Shown: piece after piece, positions 22,581 through 55,948 of the stretch
How the letters are laid out: the number at the start of each line of letters is the position of its first letter
Position numbering within the stretch: position 1 is the first letter of the stretch
DNA from: Paractinoplanes abujensis
GTDB lineage: Bacteria > Actinomycetota > Actinomycetes > Mycobacteriales > Micromonosporaceae
Direction of reading: 5' to 3'
Assembly (NCBI RefSeq): GCF_014204895.1
Contig: NZ_JACHMF010000001.1
Span: forward strand, 4,278,001-4,342,000
Length of the DNA stretch: 64,000 nt
The notes under the pieces: generated by a model
Told to the model about the DNA's origin: nothing
The model's input: only the letters and a program-made list of their open reading frames with translations
Database searches by the model: none
Position numbers and translations under genes: made by a program

Positions 22581-22655
22581 CAATCTCAGGCAATTCTCAG
22601 ACGATTGTCATCAGTCAAATGTTTCCCGGCCGATTCGTAGGGCACGCGGCGGCAC

Positions 22656-23777
22656 ATGCTTCTCGAGAACCAGCACGAACCGGCCGGGACCATTCGTGAG
22701 GATCTCGATGCGGCCGCGGCGGCCTATCACGCCCGGCTCATCGACGGCGACGGTGACGCCGGTGCGGCCCGCGACGAGTTCGTCGACTGCTGCCTGCCGA
22801 TGGCCGGACGGCTGGCCCGCCGCTACCGGGGTCGCGGCGAACCCGTCGACGACCTCGTGCAGGTGGCCCGGTTCGCCCTGGTCAAGGCGGTCGACCGGTT
22901 CGACCCCGAGCGCGGCTCGTTCACTGCCTACGCCGTCACGACGATCCAGGGCGAGCTCAAGAAGCATTTCCGCGACAAGACCTGGGGCGTGCACGTGACG
23001 CGGCAGCTGCGCGACACGGTGCTGGAGGTCAGGCAGGCCCGGGCCGAGCTGGCCGGGCGGCTGTCCCGCGAGCCCGGCACGGCTGAGATCGCCGAGCACT
23101 TGGGCATGGAGGACACCGACGTGCGGGCGGCGATGGCGGCCGCGGCCGGCTACTCCCCCGCCTCGCTCAACTCGCCGGTCGGCGACGAGAACGCCGCCGA
23201 GCTGGGCGACTTGCTCGGTTCGCTCGACCCCGATCTGGCCCACGTCGACGACCGGCTCTCGGTGACCCGGCTGCTGCTGCGCCTGCCGGAGCGCGAGCAG
23301 CGGATCCTGGCGATGCGCTTCTACGGCAACAAGAGCCAGGCCGAGATCGGAGCCGAGCTGGGCGTCTCCCAGATGCACGTGTCCCGGCTGCTGGCGGCGG
23401 CGCTGGCCTGGCTGCGCGAGGCGATGCTGAGCGACCGGGTGCCGCCCTGGCGCGGGGCCGACCGGCACGCCTACGGGGTGACCATGACCGTCTCCGTGCG
23501 GGGCCCGGCCCTGACCGTCGCCCTGACCGGCGAGCTCGACCGCGACGAGGCCCACCGCACCCTGGTCGCGTTGCACCGGGCCGTGTGGGACGCGAAGTGC
23601 TCCACGGTCACCATCGACCTGGACGGGGTGCCGTTCCTCGACGCGGTCGGCGTGGCGATGCTGGCCGACCTGGCCCGGGCGGCCGGGCTGGCCGGGCGCA
23701 CCTTCGCGATCGCCCGGCCGCATACCGTCGTGCGCCAGGTCCTGACCGTCTCCGGCCTGGACAAATACGTCGCTTAG
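22656..23777 (+). CDS. SigB/SigF-type RNA polymerase sigma factor fused to a C-terminal STAS domain
   Basis: A 373-residue fusion. Residues about 35-260 form a group 3 sigma factor: region 2 (DDLVQVARFALVKAVDRFDP, YAVTTIQGELKKHFRDKTWG), region 3 (LSREPGTAEIAEHLG) and region 4 (LPEREQRILAMRFYGNKSQA, then EIGAELGVSQMHVSRLLA). Residues about 272-373 form an anti-sigma-antagonist STAS domain (VSVRGPALTVALTGELDRDE, STVTIDLDGVPFLDAVGVAM). Where SpoIIAA-like proteins have D-S-S-G, this domain has D329-A-V-G332, so the phosphorylatable serine is absent. The module would put an anti-anti-sigma domain in cis with the sigma factor. It overlaps the convergent ligase gene by four bases. Confidence 0.9.
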   Translation: MLLENQHEPAGTIREDLDAAAAAYHARLIDGDGDAGAARDEFVDCCLPMAGRLARRYRGRGEPVDDLVQVARFALVKAVDRFDPERGSFTAYAVTTIQGELKKHFRDKTWGVHVTRQLRDTVLEVRQARAELAGRLSREPGTAEIAEHLGMEDTDVRAAMAAAAGYSPASLNSPVGDENAAELGDLLGSLDPDLAHVDDRLSVTRLLLRLPEREQRILAMRFYGNKSQAEIGAELGVSQMHVSRLLAAALAWLREAMLSDRVPPWRGADRHAYGVTMTVSVRGPALTVALTGELDRDEAHRTLVALHRAVWDAKCSTVTIDLDGVPFLDAVGVAMLADLARAAGLAGRTFAIARPHTVVRQVLTVSGLDKYVA

Positions 23778-24862
23778 GGCCTGTCCTGGCCGGAGACGGT
23801 GGCCCGGGCCAACTGGTCGGTCAGTTCGGTCGCCGGCCACCGCCGCTGCCGGTCGGCGCCGGTGCCCTCGCGGCGCACCCGGTCCAGCCCGGCCTCGACG
23901 AAAGTCAGGTCGCCGTGTTCGCGCAGCACCGGAGCGACCCGGTCGAGCAGGTCGCCGATCATGTCCCAGGCCGGCCGGGCCTGCCCCGCGACCGGGTCCA
24001 GCAGGGTGCCGCCGAGGCCGTCGCGGGCCGCGTTCCAGTGGGCGCCGTGCAGCACCACGTCGGGGATCTCGGGGGCCGGGCGGCCGGCCTCGGCGTCGGC
24101 GATCGCGGCGCCGATCAGGCCGCGGGCCAGCGCGGCGACCAGCACGGTGTCGTCGGCGGTGAGGCAGACGTCGGCCACCCTGATCTCCACGGTGGGGAAG
24201 TTCGCCGACGGCCGGGAGTAGTAGAAAATCATGCTCTCGTCCATCATCTCGCCCGACGCGATCAGGGTGCGGATGATGCGGTCGTAGTCCGCGACCGAGC
24301 GCACGTGCGGCCACGGCCCCATGCTGGGCCACCGCTCGAGCTGAATCGAGCGCCAGCTGGCGTACCCGGTGTCGGCACCCTCGCATCGCGGGGAGTTGGC
24401 CGCCAGCGCCTGCAGCATCGGCAGCGACCCGCGCAACCGGGTGCAGACCTCGACCGCGAGCTCGACGGTGGGGATGCCGACATGCACGTGACAGCCGCAG
24501 ACGGCAGGGTCGCGCGCGATCGGCCCGTAGTGGTCGACGATCTTGCGGAACCGGGTGTCGTCGGCCGGCTCACGTTGTGACTCGGCCACCGGGGTGGCCC
24601 CCACCGCGGCCAGGCTCGCCCCGGCCGCGGTGGCCAGCCCGGCGGTCGTGCGCCGTGCGGTCAGCAGTTGCTCGCGCAGCTCGCCGAGGCCGGTGCACAC
24701 GTCGGTGACCAGCTCGACCATGCTGGGGCGGAACTCGCGGCGGTAGCGCCGGCGCAGGTCGGCGGGCAGCTCGGCGGCCACCTTCTCGGCCAGCGGCGCG
24801 TTCTCGCCGGTGTGCGGGTCGAGCAGCAGGAACTCCTCCTCGACGCCGAGGGTGAGCGTCAT
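23774..24862 (-). CDS. YbdK-type carboxylate-amine ligase (glutamate-cysteine ligase family 2)
   Basis: A 362-residue ATP-dependent ligase of the GCS2 family. Landmarks are TLGVEEEFLLLDPHTGENAP at the start, GCHVHVGIP (metal/ATP site) near 122, the SMGPWPHVRS stretch and FPTVEIRVADVCLTADD near 232-248. E. coli YbdK has weak glutamate-cysteine ligase activity; the native role in actinobacteria, which make mycothiol or ergothioneine, is not established. Its ATG overlaps the stop of the methyltransferase gene upstream by four bases, so the two are probably co-expressed. Confidence 0.88.
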   Translation of the reverse strand: MTLTLGVEEEFLLLDPHTGENAPLAEKVAAELPADLRRRYRREFRPSMVELVTDVCTGLGELREQLLTARRTTAGLATAAGASLAAVGATPVAESQREPADDTRFRKIVDHYGPIARDPAVCGCHVHVGIPTVELAVEVCTRLRGSLPMLQALAANSPRCEGADTGYASWRSIQLERWPSMGPWPHVRSVADYDRIIRTLIASGEMMDESMIFYYSRPSANFPTVEIRVADVCLTADDTVLVAALARGLIGAAIADAEAGRPAPEIPDVVLHGAHWNAARDGLGGTLLDPVAGQARPAWDMIGDLLDRVAPVLREHGDLTFVEAGLDRVRREGTGADRQRRWPATELTDQLARATVSGQDRP

Positions 24863-25836
24863 CGGGGCCGGGTCGCGGTCAGCAGGACCACGGCGATCCG
24901 CTCGGCCCGGGAGTACGCGGGCCCGGCCAGCTCCTCGTCGTAGACGTCCGGGTCGACCTCGCGGTACGTCCAGGTCAAGCCGGTGCCCTCGAGCCGGCCG
25001 GCCGCCGCCGCCCGCAGCGGGTCATGGCCGTCGATGATGCCGCACCCGCTGAACAGCACGAGCGAGCCGCCCGGGGCCAGACGTTCCGCGGCCACGTCGA
25101 TGATCGTGAGCGACAGCTCGTTGCCGTGCTCGCCGCCGCCGTCGCGGTAGGTGCGCCCGGCCGGGTCGATCATGAACGGCGGGTTGGAGACGATCAGGTC
25201 GAACTGGCCGTCCACCGCGTCCAGCAAGTTGCTGTGGCAGGGCCGCACCCCGCTCGTGCCGGCCAGCGCGGCGTTGATCCGGGCGTAGCGCAGCGCGGTG
25301 TCGTTGATGTCGACGGCGAACACTTCCGCCCCGGGCGCCCGCTTGGCCACGGTGATCGCGCCCGCACCGGTGCCGGTGCCGATGTCGGCCACTCGGGCCG
25401 GCGGGCGTTCCCGGGCGGTCACGTGGGCCGCGGCGCAGTCGGCCATCCGGTACGTGTCGGGGCCGAAGAACACCGAGTCGGGCGCGTCGGTCGGGAACGC
25501 CGAGTGGACGAACAGCTCGTCGTCGTACGAGGAGAACCGCACCCGGCTGCGCCACAGGTCGCCGCTGCGCTCCAGAGCGTCCGCGGCCCGCAGCAGATCG
25601 AAGATCGGGGCGGGCAGTACCTCCGGCGCGAACGGCCGGCTCCAGCCGAACACATCGCGCACGCCGGCCGCGGCGGCGTTCCCGGGGCGCCGGTTGATCA
25701 GGGCGTGGGTGGCCGGGGTGACGGTGGTGAATCGGTAGCCGGAATTCTTCAGCTCCCGGCCCAGCTGCAACAGCGCCTCATCGGCGGCCTTGCTGTCCTC
25801 GCCGGTGGACGCGGGAACGGTGTCGGTCGTCGTCAT
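24859..25836 (-). CDS. Class I SAM-dependent methyltransferase (small-domain/PrmC-like)
   Basis: A 325-residue methyltransferase. Motif I is VADIGTGTGAGAITVAK near 165-180, motif II VFAVDINDTALRYARINA, and the NPPF tetrapeptide in FDLIVSNPPFMIDPAG marks enzymes that methylate nitrogen in a planar system such as glutamine, adenine or guanine bases. The N-terminal 150 residues (FGWSRPFAPEVLPAPIFDLL, VFFGPDTYRMAD) form a substrate domain. The substrate is not identifiable. It is the first gene of a two-gene unit with the carboxylate-amine ligase. Confidence 0.82.
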   Translation of the reverse strand: MTTTDTVPASTGEDSKAADEALLQLGRELKNSGYRFTTVTPATHALINRRPGNAAAAGVRDVFGWSRPFAPEVLPAPIFDLLRAADALERSGDLWRSRVRFSSYDDELFVHSAFPTDAPDSVFFGPDTYRMADCAAAHVTARERPPARVADIGTGTGAGAITVAKRAPGAEVFAVDINDTALRYARINAALAGTSGVRPCHSNLLDAVDGQFDLIVSNPPFMIDPAGRTYRDGGGEHGNELSLTIIDVAAERLAPGGSLVLFSGCGIIDGHDPLRAAAAGRLEGTGLTWTYREVDPDVYDEELAGPAYSRAERIAVVLLTATRPR

Positions 25837-25857
25837 GGGGCGCGGCATTCCCCGCCC

Positions 25858-25908: not shown

Positions 25909-26826
25909 TCAGTCCAGCGCGCCCTTGATCTTGTTGACGACGTTGGCCACACCCTGGGCGTGCGCACCGGCGCCGGTGCCCGGCTTGCCCTTGCCCATCG
26001 ACCCGTCGTACGTGACGAACAGCTTCGGGTCCGGCGCGGGCCCCAGCGGCTTGTCGTCGGTCAGCGGCTGCGCATCCGGCACGTAGATGATCTCGTCCTT
26101 GCCGTTGAGCGCGGGACCTCGCGCCCACCGGCCCTCACCGGCCGTGCTCTCCGGGTCGAAGCTGTAGAACGTGTGGTTCTGGTCCTGCTTCTCGAACTCG
26201 CCGTTGGAGTCCTCGATCCCGTTCTCGGTGTAACCGTCCTCGATCAGCTGCTCGATGCCGAGCAGCCACTGCTGCTGGTGATAGGTGTCGCGGGCCAGGT
26301 TGAACTGCAGCATGTCCTTGACCCCGCGGTCGTCGGTCATGTTGTAGATGCGGCTGGTCTGCAACCGGCTCTGCGCCTCGGCCGAGACGTTGGAACGGAA
26401 GTCGGCGAGCAGGTTGCCACTGGCCACGATGTAACCGGCGTTCCACGGCACACCCTGGCTGTTGGTCGGCATCGCGCTGCCGCCGGTGACGATCGAGTGC
26501 TGCGGGTTCTGCCCGCCCAGCACCGCGGCCAGCACCGGGTTGGCCGCGGCGGCCTTCTCGGTGGCCTCGGCCGGGCCCCCCTCGAGCAGCCGGGCCAGCA
26601 TCGTCGTGAGCATCTCGACGTGGCCGATCTCCTCGGTCGCGATGTCCATGATCATGTCTTTGTACTTGCCGGGCACCCGGCACGACCAGCCCTGCCACAG
26701 GTACTGCATCATCACGGTCATCTCGCCGAACTGGCCGCCGACCAGCTCCTGGAGCTTGGCCGCGAAGAACGCGTCGGGCTTCTCGGGCTTGGCCTGGTAC
26801 TGCAGGTAATCAACGTGCTTGAACAT
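25909..26826 (-). CDS. Manganese catalase
   Basis: A 305-residue non-haem catalase that splits hydrogen peroxide at a dinuclear manganese centre. Four-helix-bundle ligands match the known enzymes: Glu35 in GGQFGEMTVM, Glu66 and His69 in ATEEIGHVEML, a probable Glu150 in NVSAEAQSRL and His183 in ARDTYHQQQWL. The C-terminal 100 residues are polar (TFYSFDPESTAGEGRW, then GSMGKGKPGTGAGAHAQG). It is divergent from the manganese transporter gene mntH across 116 bases, so supply and use of the metal are linked at one locus. Confidence 0.95.
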   Translation of the reverse strand: MFKHVDYLQYQAKPEKPDAFFAAKLQELVGGQFGEMTVMMQYLWQGWSCRVPGKYKDMIMDIATEEIGHVEMLTTMLARLLEGGPAEATEKAAAANPVLAAVLGGQNPQHSIVTGGSAMPTNSQGVPWNAGYIVASGNLLADFRSNVSAEAQSRLQTSRIYNMTDDRGVKDMLQFNLARDTYHQQQWLLGIEQLIEDGYTENGIEDSNGEFEKQDQNHTFYSFDPESTAGEGRWARGPALNGKDEIIYVPDAQPLTDDKPLGPAPDPKLFVTYDGSMGKGKPGTGAGAHAQGVANVVNKIKGALD

Positions 26827-26942: not shown

Positions 26943-28178
26943 ATGGTGGTTCTCGATGTGACGGCGCCGCTGCGCAAGCGGGTGGCCCGGGTGGCGCCGT
27001 GGTTCGGGCCGGCCTTCGTGGCGGCGATCGCCTATGCGGACCCCGGCAACTTCGCAACCAACTTCACCGGCGGCGCGACCTTCGGCTACCAGCTCGTCTG
27101 GGTGCTGGTGGCCGCGAACCTGATGGCGATGCTGATCCAGTCGCTCTCCGCCAAGCTGGGCCTGGTCACCGGGCGCAACCTGCCCGAGCTGTGCCGCGAC
27201 CGGCTGCCCCGCCGGGTCACGGCCGGGCTGTGGGTGCAGGCCGAACTGGTCGCCATGGCCACCGACCTGGCCGAGATCATCGGCGGCGCGCTCGCGCTGT
27301 ACCTGCTGTTCGGCATCCCGCTGCCGATCGGCGGCCTGATCACCTGCGCGGTCGCGGTCGCGCTGCTCGCCCTGCACAGCCGGGGCGCCCGCCGGTTCGA
27401 GACCGCGATCACCGGGCTGCTCGCCGTCATCATGATCGGCTTCGTGTACACCGGAATCCGCTCCGGAACCAACGCCGGCGCGCTGGCCAGTGGCATGGTG
27501 CCGTCATTCTCGGGCGTGGACAGCATGATCCTGGCGGCCGGCATCCTCGGCGCCACCGTCATGCCGCACGTCATCTATCTGCACTCCGCGCTGACCACCT
27601 CGCGGACGACCGCCGACCCGGTGCGCCTGGCCACCGCGCTGCGCTGGCAGCGGGCCGACACGCTGCTCGCGCTGGGTGCGGCGGGCCTGGTCAACCTGGC
27701 CATGCTGGTGATCGCGGCGCAACTGTTCCACGGCTCCGGCCTGCCGGGCACCGACACGATCGAAGGCATCCACCACGGCCTCGGGGTGACACTCGACCAG
27801 GGCGCGGCCATCGCGTTCGCGGTGGCCCTGCTGGCCTCCGGGTTCGCCTCGTCCAGCGTCGGCACGTACGCCGGTCAGGTCGTCATGCAGGGCTTCATCG
27901 GGCGCAGCATCCCGCTGACCCTGCGCCGGCTGCTCACGATGGCCCCCGCGATGATCATCCTGGTGCTGGGGGTCGACCCCACCGTGGCGCTGGTCTGGTC
28001 GCAGGTGCTGCTGTCGTTCGGGGTGCCGTTCGCGCTGATCCCGCTGATCTGGCTGACCCGGCGCCGCGACGTGCTCGGCGACCACGTCAACCACCCGCTC
28101 ACCACCGCGGTCGGGGCGGCGGTGGCGGTGCTCGTGATCGCGTTGAACGCCTTCCTGCTGACCCAGATTTTGATCTGA
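26943..28178 (+). CDS. mntH: Nramp family Mn2+/Fe2+ transporter
   Basis: A 411-residue membrane protein with eleven predicted helices. The metal-binding helix 1 motif is DPGNFATNF at 33-41 and the helix 6 motif is MPHVIYLHS near 203-211, both diagnostic of proton-coupled divalent-metal importers. The neighbouring divergent manganese catalase supports manganese as the physiological substrate. A GC-rich hairpin precedes the gene. No MntR-type regulator gene is adjacent, so control must come from elsewhere. Confidence 0.95.
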   Translation: MVVLDVTAPLRKRVARVAPWFGPAFVAAIAYADPGNFATNFTGGATFGYQLVWVLVAANLMAMLIQSLSAKLGLVTGRNLPELCRDRLPRRVTAGLWVQAELVAMATDLAEIIGGALALYLLFGIPLPIGGLITCAVAVALLALHSRGARRFETAITGLLAVIMIGFVYTGIRSGTNAGALASGMVPSFSGVDSMILAAGILGATVMPHVIYLHSALTTSRTTADPVRLATALRWQRADTLLALGAAGLVNLAMLVIAAQLFHGSGLPGTDTIEGIHHGLGVTLDQGAAIAFAVALLASGFASSSVGTYAGQVVMQGFIGRSIPLTLRRLLTMAPAMIILVLGVDPTVALVWSQVLLSFGVPFALIPLIWLTRRRDVLGDHVNHPLTTAVGAAVAVLVIALNAFLLTQILI

Positions 28179-55216: not shown

Positions 55217-55948
55217 CTACTCGATCAGCGCCCAGACGACCTTGCCGCCGGGCACAGGCGTGGCACCCCAGTGCGTGGCCGCCGCACCCACGATGCGCAG
55301 CCCGCGCCCCGACCCCGGCCGCATCAGCGTGCTGGTCACGGGCGGTCCCCCGGGCGGCCGGGGCATCGCCGCGACCGCGTCCTGCACGCCGACCCGCAAA
55401 TAACGCCCGGTGTGGACGACGGTCAAGTCGAACTCGCACGCCGCGTGCACGATCGCGTTGGCCGCCAGCTCATTGGCGATCAGCCGGGCCGGGCCCCGCA
55501 GATGCGGCAGACCCCAGGTCAGACAGGCCTCACCGGTGACGTTGCGGGCGGCGGCCGCACTGGCCGGCTCGGGCAGCAGATGGCGGCGCACCCAGCGGGG
55601 CACGTTGGCGTTCACCGCGAGCGCCGCCTGGGAGCTGTCCTCATAGAGCGCCACATAGGTGCGGAAGGCGCCGAGACCATCCCGTACGCCGGGAGCCGCC
55701 CCACACAGCAGCACCGGCACACCCCAATGCAGCTGGGCGTCATGCGTCATCGTGGCGAACACACCGAGCAGCGCATCGGCCTCGTGCCGGAGCCCGGCCA
55801 GGTCGACGATCACAGCGGCCGGGCACTCCGCGGCGACCTTGGCGATCGCGGTGCCCACCTCCGGAACCGTGGCCACCGACAGTTCGCCGCCCAGACGTAC
55901 CGTCGTGATCCCGGTGTCGAGGTTCCGGGCGATCACTGTCTTCAACAT
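55217..55948 (-). CDS. STAS domain fused to RsbW-type HATPase (anti-sigma/anti-anti-sigma fusion)
   Basis: A 243-residue fusion. Residues about 1-105 form a STAS domain (TGITTVRLGGELSVATVPEV, AAVIVDLAGLRHEADALLGV). The site that holds the phosphorylatable serine in SpoIIAA-like proteins (D-S-S-G) reads EAD here, so phosphorylation at that position is impossible. Residues about 130-243 form a HATPase_c_2 domain with N-box RLIANELAANAIVHA and G-box MRPGSGRGLRIVG. The ATG 55948 is used; upstream reading is arginine-rich noise. Normally these are separate interacting proteins. The partner sigma factor is not adjacent. Confidence 0.85.
   Translation of the reverse strand: MLKTVIARNLDTGITTVRLGGELSVATVPEVGTAIAKVAAECPAAVIVDLAGLRHEADALLGVFATMTHDAQLHWGVPVLLCGAAPGVRDGLGAFRTYVALYEDSSQAALAVNANVPRWVRRHLLPEPASAAAARNVTGEACLTWGLPHLRGPARLIANELAANAIVHAACEFDLTVVHTGRYLRVGVQDAVAAMPRPPGGPPVTSTLMRPGSGRGLRIVGAAATHWGATPVPGGKVVWALIE

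Follow-up and report, generated by a model that had tools for sequence, protein, structure and literature searches.

A divergent paralogue of the sigma-SsdA gene, fused to a STAS domain without a phospho-acceptor serine, as a putative target of SipA-type inhibitors

What does a STAS domain do when it is joined to a sigma factor and lacks the serine that is phosphorylated in RsbV and SpoIIAA? The question is raised by a gene of Paractinoplanes abujensis that lies in the 64,000-nucleotide stretch of DNA analysed here (the window; Table 1). A sequence-only reading had proposed a SigB/SigF-type sigma factor fused to a STAS domain, and both parts of this proposal hold. The gene is a single uninterrupted frame in which a SigBFG sigma factor is followed by a C-terminal STAS domain, and the fusion is borne out by the intact frame of 373 residues, the domain profiles and the STAS fold; a domain check of the C-terminal part places the STAS domain where Table 1 lists it. 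The sigma part, with regions 2, 3 and 4 present, scores above the NCBIfam SigBFG cut-off, and Pfam agrees. In the predicted structure, the STAS fold has high confidence and was matched in a second Foldseek look, while sigma chains were among the 50 matches listed for the whole model. The pTM of 0.40 means that no fixed arrangement of the sigma and STAS parts is predicted. A protein search with residues 262–373 alone returned, among 2200 candidates, the window protein itself as the sole match.

Table 1. Positions of the fusion gene, its parts, its neighbours and related genes (window coordinates unless a contig is given)
Feature	Position	Strand	Basis
Sigma-STAS fusion gene, SsdA-like paralogue, 373 aa	22656..23777	+	
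Sigma regions 2–4 (residues 31–262), SigB/SigF/SigG type	22746..23441	+	Pfam and NCBIfam, above cut-off
Linker after region 4.2 (about residues 258–272)	23427..23471	+	alignment; low pLDDT at 270–272
STAS domain, residues 272–373	23469..23774	+	
Ala330 codon, phosphoserine position of SpoIIAA/RsbV	23643..23645	+	alignment
Promoter-like site (weak), GTTT-n14-AGGGCA, 11 nt upstream of the ATG	22621..22644	+	2 mismatches; not above background
Glutamate-cysteine ligase family 2 (GCS2), convergent, 4-nt overlap with the fusion gene	23774..24862	-	
SAM-dependent methyltransferase	24859..25848	-	
Manganese catalase	25909..26826	-	
MntH/Nramp-type Mn(II) transporter	26943..28178	+	
SipA-like STAS + HATPase protein, 243 aa, candidate partner	55217..55948	-	Pfam
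Own-genome fusions besides the window gene	G000:C1:1147010, 9248048, 3624395, 4133652		domain profiles

Two positions outside the acceptor site are nearly invariant in an alignment of 73 rows (A2), which joins the window protein to 53 of the 61 prepared locus proteins and to 19 of 119 further matches listed from the database. Trp265 of the linker is a tryptophan in 72 of the 73 sequences, Asp295 of the STAS domain is an aspartate in 71, and the A-x-G turn is also kept. By motif, without a computed alignment, we take Asp295 to be the equivalent of RsbV Asp23. The latter is described as a residue in contact with RsbW. A second alignment (A1) used 31 of 36 fusions (L084, L141, L149, L152 and L153 excluded).

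The window protein carries Ala330 where the D-S-x-G turn of RsbV and SpoIIAA has a phosphorylatable Ser or Thr, and the loss of the phospho-serine proved to be family-wide. Among 80 distinct fusions, the aligned acceptor position is Ala in 76, Gly in two, Arg in one, Thr in one and Ser in none, whereas 27 other STAS domains of the same genome, drawn from 30 of its 48 STAS matches, have Ser in 21, Ala in five and Val in one (Fisher p = 6e-16 for Ser or Thr, uncorrected for kinship). Among solved structures, the family profile scored highest against 1tid_B (57.3 bits; matched stretch D-A-S-G), ahead of 1th8_B (53.5 bits, D-S-S-G); in the 1TID structure, Ser58 is described as mutated to alanine. 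The sole fusion with a phosphorylatable residue lies in L149 (8187–9116) and reads D-T-T-G. Small lone STAS proteins near fusion genes have Ala at the acceptor position in 12 of 26 cases; in L139, L142, L143, L144, L251, L253 and L256, A-A-A-G replaces D-S-x-G in such proteins, which are encoded near sigma-STAS or SipA-like genes.

The sequence-only reading had argued that phosphorylation could not silence such a STAS domain, which could then titrate the anti-sigma factor in cis and yield a sigma factor that resists inhibition or responds to a signal other than phosphorylation. In classical systems, as described, non-phosphorylated RsbV or SpoIIAA frees the sigma factor by binding the anti-sigma factor, and the missing acceptor would hold the fused domain in a binding-competent state. 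The first part of the argument stands, but the supposed freedom from inhibition is not supported, and the opposite is favoured by the nearest studied relative. This relative, sigma-SsdA of Actinoplanes missouriensis, is a sigma-STAS fusion published in 2023 together with its inhibitor SipA, which combines a STAS domain with an RsbW-like ATPase domain (PMC10733313). According to that report, the RsbW-like part of SipA binds the STAS domain of sigma-SsdA in two-hybrid assays, in which no binding to the sigma domain alone was detected, and the sporangium defect of a sipA deletion is cured by additional deletion of ssdA; the authors treat the sipA deletion strain as carrying a 'hyper-active' sigma factor (PMC10733313). 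Contact between STAS and SipA thus accompanies inhibition, and the defect without sipA depends on ssdA, so that an always-active cis antagonist that occupies the anti-sigma factor is quite unlikely. The STAS domain of sigma-SsdA-type proteins looks like the inhibitor's dock, not a shield. It may also have a positive role, since an L372P exchange in the STAS domain of sigma-SsdA is reported to abolish sigma function (PMC10733313). The authors name the mechanism of inhibition as a future challenge; the words 'serine' and 'paralog' are absent from the main text, and its four words beginning with 'phosphorylat-' are about RsbV and RsdR/RsdK (PMC10733313). Judged by title and the start of the abstract, no further paper on a sigma-STAS fusion was found among those listed in literature searches.

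On the inhibitor's side, the ATP site is conserved. Four of its residues (Glu and Asn of the N-box, the G1 Asp and one Gly of G2) are the same in all 85 distinct SipA-like proteins, yet at the acceptor position the STAS domains of these proteins have Pro in 68 cases, Ala in five and Ser in two, an equivalence that rests on alignment and is least sure in these diverged domains. Judged by sequence, neither of the two known partners of the SipA ATPase therefore appears to offer the residue that is the target of RsbW-type kinases. With the serine missing in the fusions and nearly so in the SipA-like STAS domains, and with four invariant ATP-site residues, phosphorylation of these STAS domains is probably not the switch. 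The genome of P. abujensis has seven near-full-length SipA matches, at G000:C1 427404, 1148125, 1150843, 4333223, 6181391, 7482030 and 7715616, and one partial match. STAS-ATPase matches also occur in G004, G005, G008, G022 and some other-family genomes in which no fusion is listed, so that such proteins are not diagnostic of a fusion. As a separate observation, the two SipA-like genes beside ssdA flank a gene for a PAS-containing CheR methyltransferase (L081, 9924–11774), an arrangement also seen in many relatives.

A survey of sigma-STAS fusions in Micromonosporaceae places the window gene in a known family, of which we examined the 80 distinct members mentioned above. Five of the 28 matches in a search of the whole P. 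abujensis genome are fusions, and at least 19 of 23 other genomes of the genus have one; none was found among the matches listed for 16 genomes of other families. A scan of named-species genomes gave 65 fusion loci, with the fusion gene called in 63 and not found by the gene caller, a simple script, in L256 and L273. In a class-wide draw, at least three of 394 genomes matched linker and STAS at E <1e-30 (best 10 candidates per genome), all of them Micromonosporaceae, and all named rows of the tree carry the same label. These data suggest that the fusion is restricted to Micromonosporaceae. A Nonomuraea fusion, outside this family, has been reported (PMC10733313) and is absent from the matches listed in the named-species scan. 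Asanoa, Plantactinospora, Spirilliplanes and Pilimelia are examples of genera with fusions beyond those in the main text of that report. Two further loci are of note in their own right. In L083 (6889–10261), the sigma-STAS gene is followed by two lone STAS genes and preceded by GAF and GAF-ANTAR genes. In L084 (7243–9771; G000:C1:4132242-4134770, minus strand), the open frame of a divergent sigma-STAS gene runs on into an HtrA-like protease (Trypsin_2 and PDZ), which appears to have a lipoprotein-type start of its own; this may be a true fusion, a pair of separate genes or the effect of a frame change.

In a tree of 80 fusions and four plain sigma factors, built with a quick method that included the STAS columns and raised a long-branch warning, the fusions group apart from the plain factors (SH-aLRT support 99). 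The ssdA orthologue of this genome is a different gene (L081, G000:C1:1147010-1148095), sister to that of Paractinoplanes lichenicola (support 99). The window gene sits outside the ssdA clade, has no adjacent convergent sipA homologue, and forms a long branch (0.92) beside that clade, grouped weakly (support 80) with L138, L140, L149 and L249. By sequence comparison, it is a divergent paralogue of the sigma-SsdA gene. Against the SsdA-group genes compared, its sigma part is 60–65% identical and its STAS domain 34–40%; the latter is thus more diverged and may bind something else. Could the gene be decaying, with its STAS partner lost and the sigma factor constitutive or inactive? Besides the long branch, the window protein departs from 12 of the 120 columns that are at least 90% conserved in the 73-row alignment, against a median of two. 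However, its frame is intact, the sigma regions and STAS fold are kept, nine of the 72 aligned relatives diverge more at the conserved columns, and its nearest listed database relative (P0002, 383 residues) is 62% identical, all of which makes decay quite improbable.

For 55 of the 80 fusions, a SipA-like gene is located no more than 8 kb away; in 45 cases the distance is at most 250 nt, and 44 of these pairs are convergent, as counted with our own gene calls and domain profiles. For the own-genome ssdA orthologue, SipA-like genes are 12 nt and 2.7 kb away. No ATPase-type gene was found within 8 kb at 21 of the 80 fusions, including the window gene, L138, L140 and L149 (the last with a short right flank), some of these loci being cut short; L249 has one 2.4 kb off. 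The missing neighbour, the lone STAS genes that adjoin the L083 fusion and those of some relatives, and the L372P result would fit a paralogue without an ATPase partner, in which the STAS domain docks to other STAS assemblies, dimerises or senses a ligand. Set against this are the 55 fusions with a SipA-like gene nearby, the retained Asp295 and A-x-G turn, and the SipA matches of the genome, and we regard such a role as unlikely. The candidate partner in the window is encoded 31.4 kb from the fusion gene and is 40% identical to the own-genome SipA orthologue. Its scores against the Pfam profiles HATPase_c_2 (29.9 bits) and STAS (23.5 bits) exceed the respective cut-offs of 27.4 and 22.6; it retains Glu, Asn and Asp in the ATP site, and its own STAS domain has no acceptor serine. 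The SipA tree, in which this protein forms a long branch of weak placement, lends no support to a dedicated partnership.

The genes that follow the fusion gene (Table 1) recall the published system, in which zoospores without ssdA are peroxide-sensitive and the genes for glutamate-cysteine ligase (GCL) and catalases, including Mn catalase, are reported to be raised, directly or indirectly, by sigma-SsdA (PMC10733313). Genes homologous to those for GCL, Mn catalase or Nramp were located no more than 8 kb from seven of the 80 fusions, and from none of the other 73. In G010, one fusion is 29 nt from an Mn catalase gene whose product is 94% identical to that of the window, and another is 52 nt from a GCL gene. 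Outside the P. abujensis genome, two of 15 listed GCL homologues (at least 55% identity) are within 8 kb of a fusion, and a third is at 9.3 kb; for these listed homologues, two were seen against 0.06 expected under uniform placement (p = 0.002). No fusion was found at 12 GCL loci fetched from other genomes. The linkage of the fusion with oxidative-stress genes recurs in a few relatives. In L151 (4821–10445), a sigma-STAS gene lies between two GCL-type genes and adjoins a gene for a SpoIIE phosphatase-HATPase-STAS protein of 610 residues.

The promoter motif reported for sigma-SsdA is GnTT-n14-CGGGTA (PMC10733313), of which the window has no exact match. Upstream, the closest sites have two mismatches for the fusion gene and three each for the catalase and GCL genes, and sites with two to three mismatches also precede 85% of 1368 other genes. 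With at most one mismatch and a spacer of 13–15 (a range of our own choice), the motif precedes 25 of 80 fusions (opposite strand, 9), 61 of 88 SipA-like genes (opposite strand, 8) and 175 of the 1368 other genes (opposite strand, 125); the window gene fails. The SipA-like gene promoters are thus far above background, consistent with feedback in the ssdA-sipA pair. A looser pattern, GTTT...GGG[TC]A, made post hoc after seeing the window sequence, occurs in 41 of 80 fusion upstream regions.

In the reading that we consider rather probable, the window protein is an SsdA-like stress sigma factor whose STAS domain serves as an unphosphorylated dock for a SipA-type inhibitor. The sigma factor would probably recognise SigB/SigF-type promoters, and its C-terminal STAS domain would offer a docking face that is permanently unphosphorylated. 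A SipA-type protein, with its STAS domain and RsbW-like ATPase, would sit on this face and keep the sigma factor from working. RsbW releases itself by phosphorylating RsbV. In the absence of the acceptor serine, the ATPase could not free itself by phosphorylating its dock, and release would have to have another cause, perhaps a ligand, a competing STAS protein or the ATP/ADP state. Oxidative-stress defence would be the likely output, and the adjoining genes for glutamate-cysteine ligase, Mn catalase and Mn uptake may be part of it. That the window protein acts like sigma-SsdA, which SipA-like protein is its partner, how it is released and whether it controls its neighbours are points on which we infer from analogy with the published system. 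More tentatively, and with somewhat less than even confidence, we suggest that the five sigma-STAS paralogues and the seven or eight STAS-ATPase proteins of this genome form a phosphorylation-free partner-switching network, in which the ATPases would switch by nucleotide state or STAS competition and the paralogues would share or exchange inhibitors.

The fusion architecture and its inhibition logic are already in print (PMC10733313). New here are the family-wide acceptor loss in the sigma and inhibitor STAS domains alike, the expansion of paralogues, the further genera and the linkage to oxidative-stress genes. Acceptor loss in both STAS domains next to a conserved ATP site makes two points testable, the need of SipA for ATP hydrolysis and the release trigger, and the paralogues are natural variants for mapping the pairing of STAS domains with inhibitors.

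How does the window protein compare with known systems? With plain SigB, SigF and SigG factors it shares regions 2–4 and an NCBIfam SigBFG score above the cut-off, but those factors have no STAS domain, and their anti-sigma factor, RsbW or SpoIIAB, binds the sigma factor itself. With RsbV and SpoIIAA it shares the STAS fold; unlike them, its STAS domain is fused to a sigma factor, has alanine in place of the phosphoserine and, judging from sigma-SsdA, its nearest studied relative, would be the binding place of the inhibitor. CapS, described as a repressor with STAS and winged-helix domains that is phosphorylated by the GHKL kinase CapK, likewise joins a STAS domain to a DNA-binding transcription protein and is paired with a GHKL-type kinase (PMC13373217); unlike the phosphorylated CapS, the window protein has Ala330 where an acceptor would be. 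The closest comparison is sigma-SsdA. The window gene differs from ssdA as a paralogue without an adjacent sipA, yet both encode a SigB/F/G sigma factor with a C-terminal STAS domain, of 373 residues in the window protein and 379 in sigma-SsdA, and both are tied to glutamate-cysteine ligase and Mn catalase genes, the window gene by adjacency.
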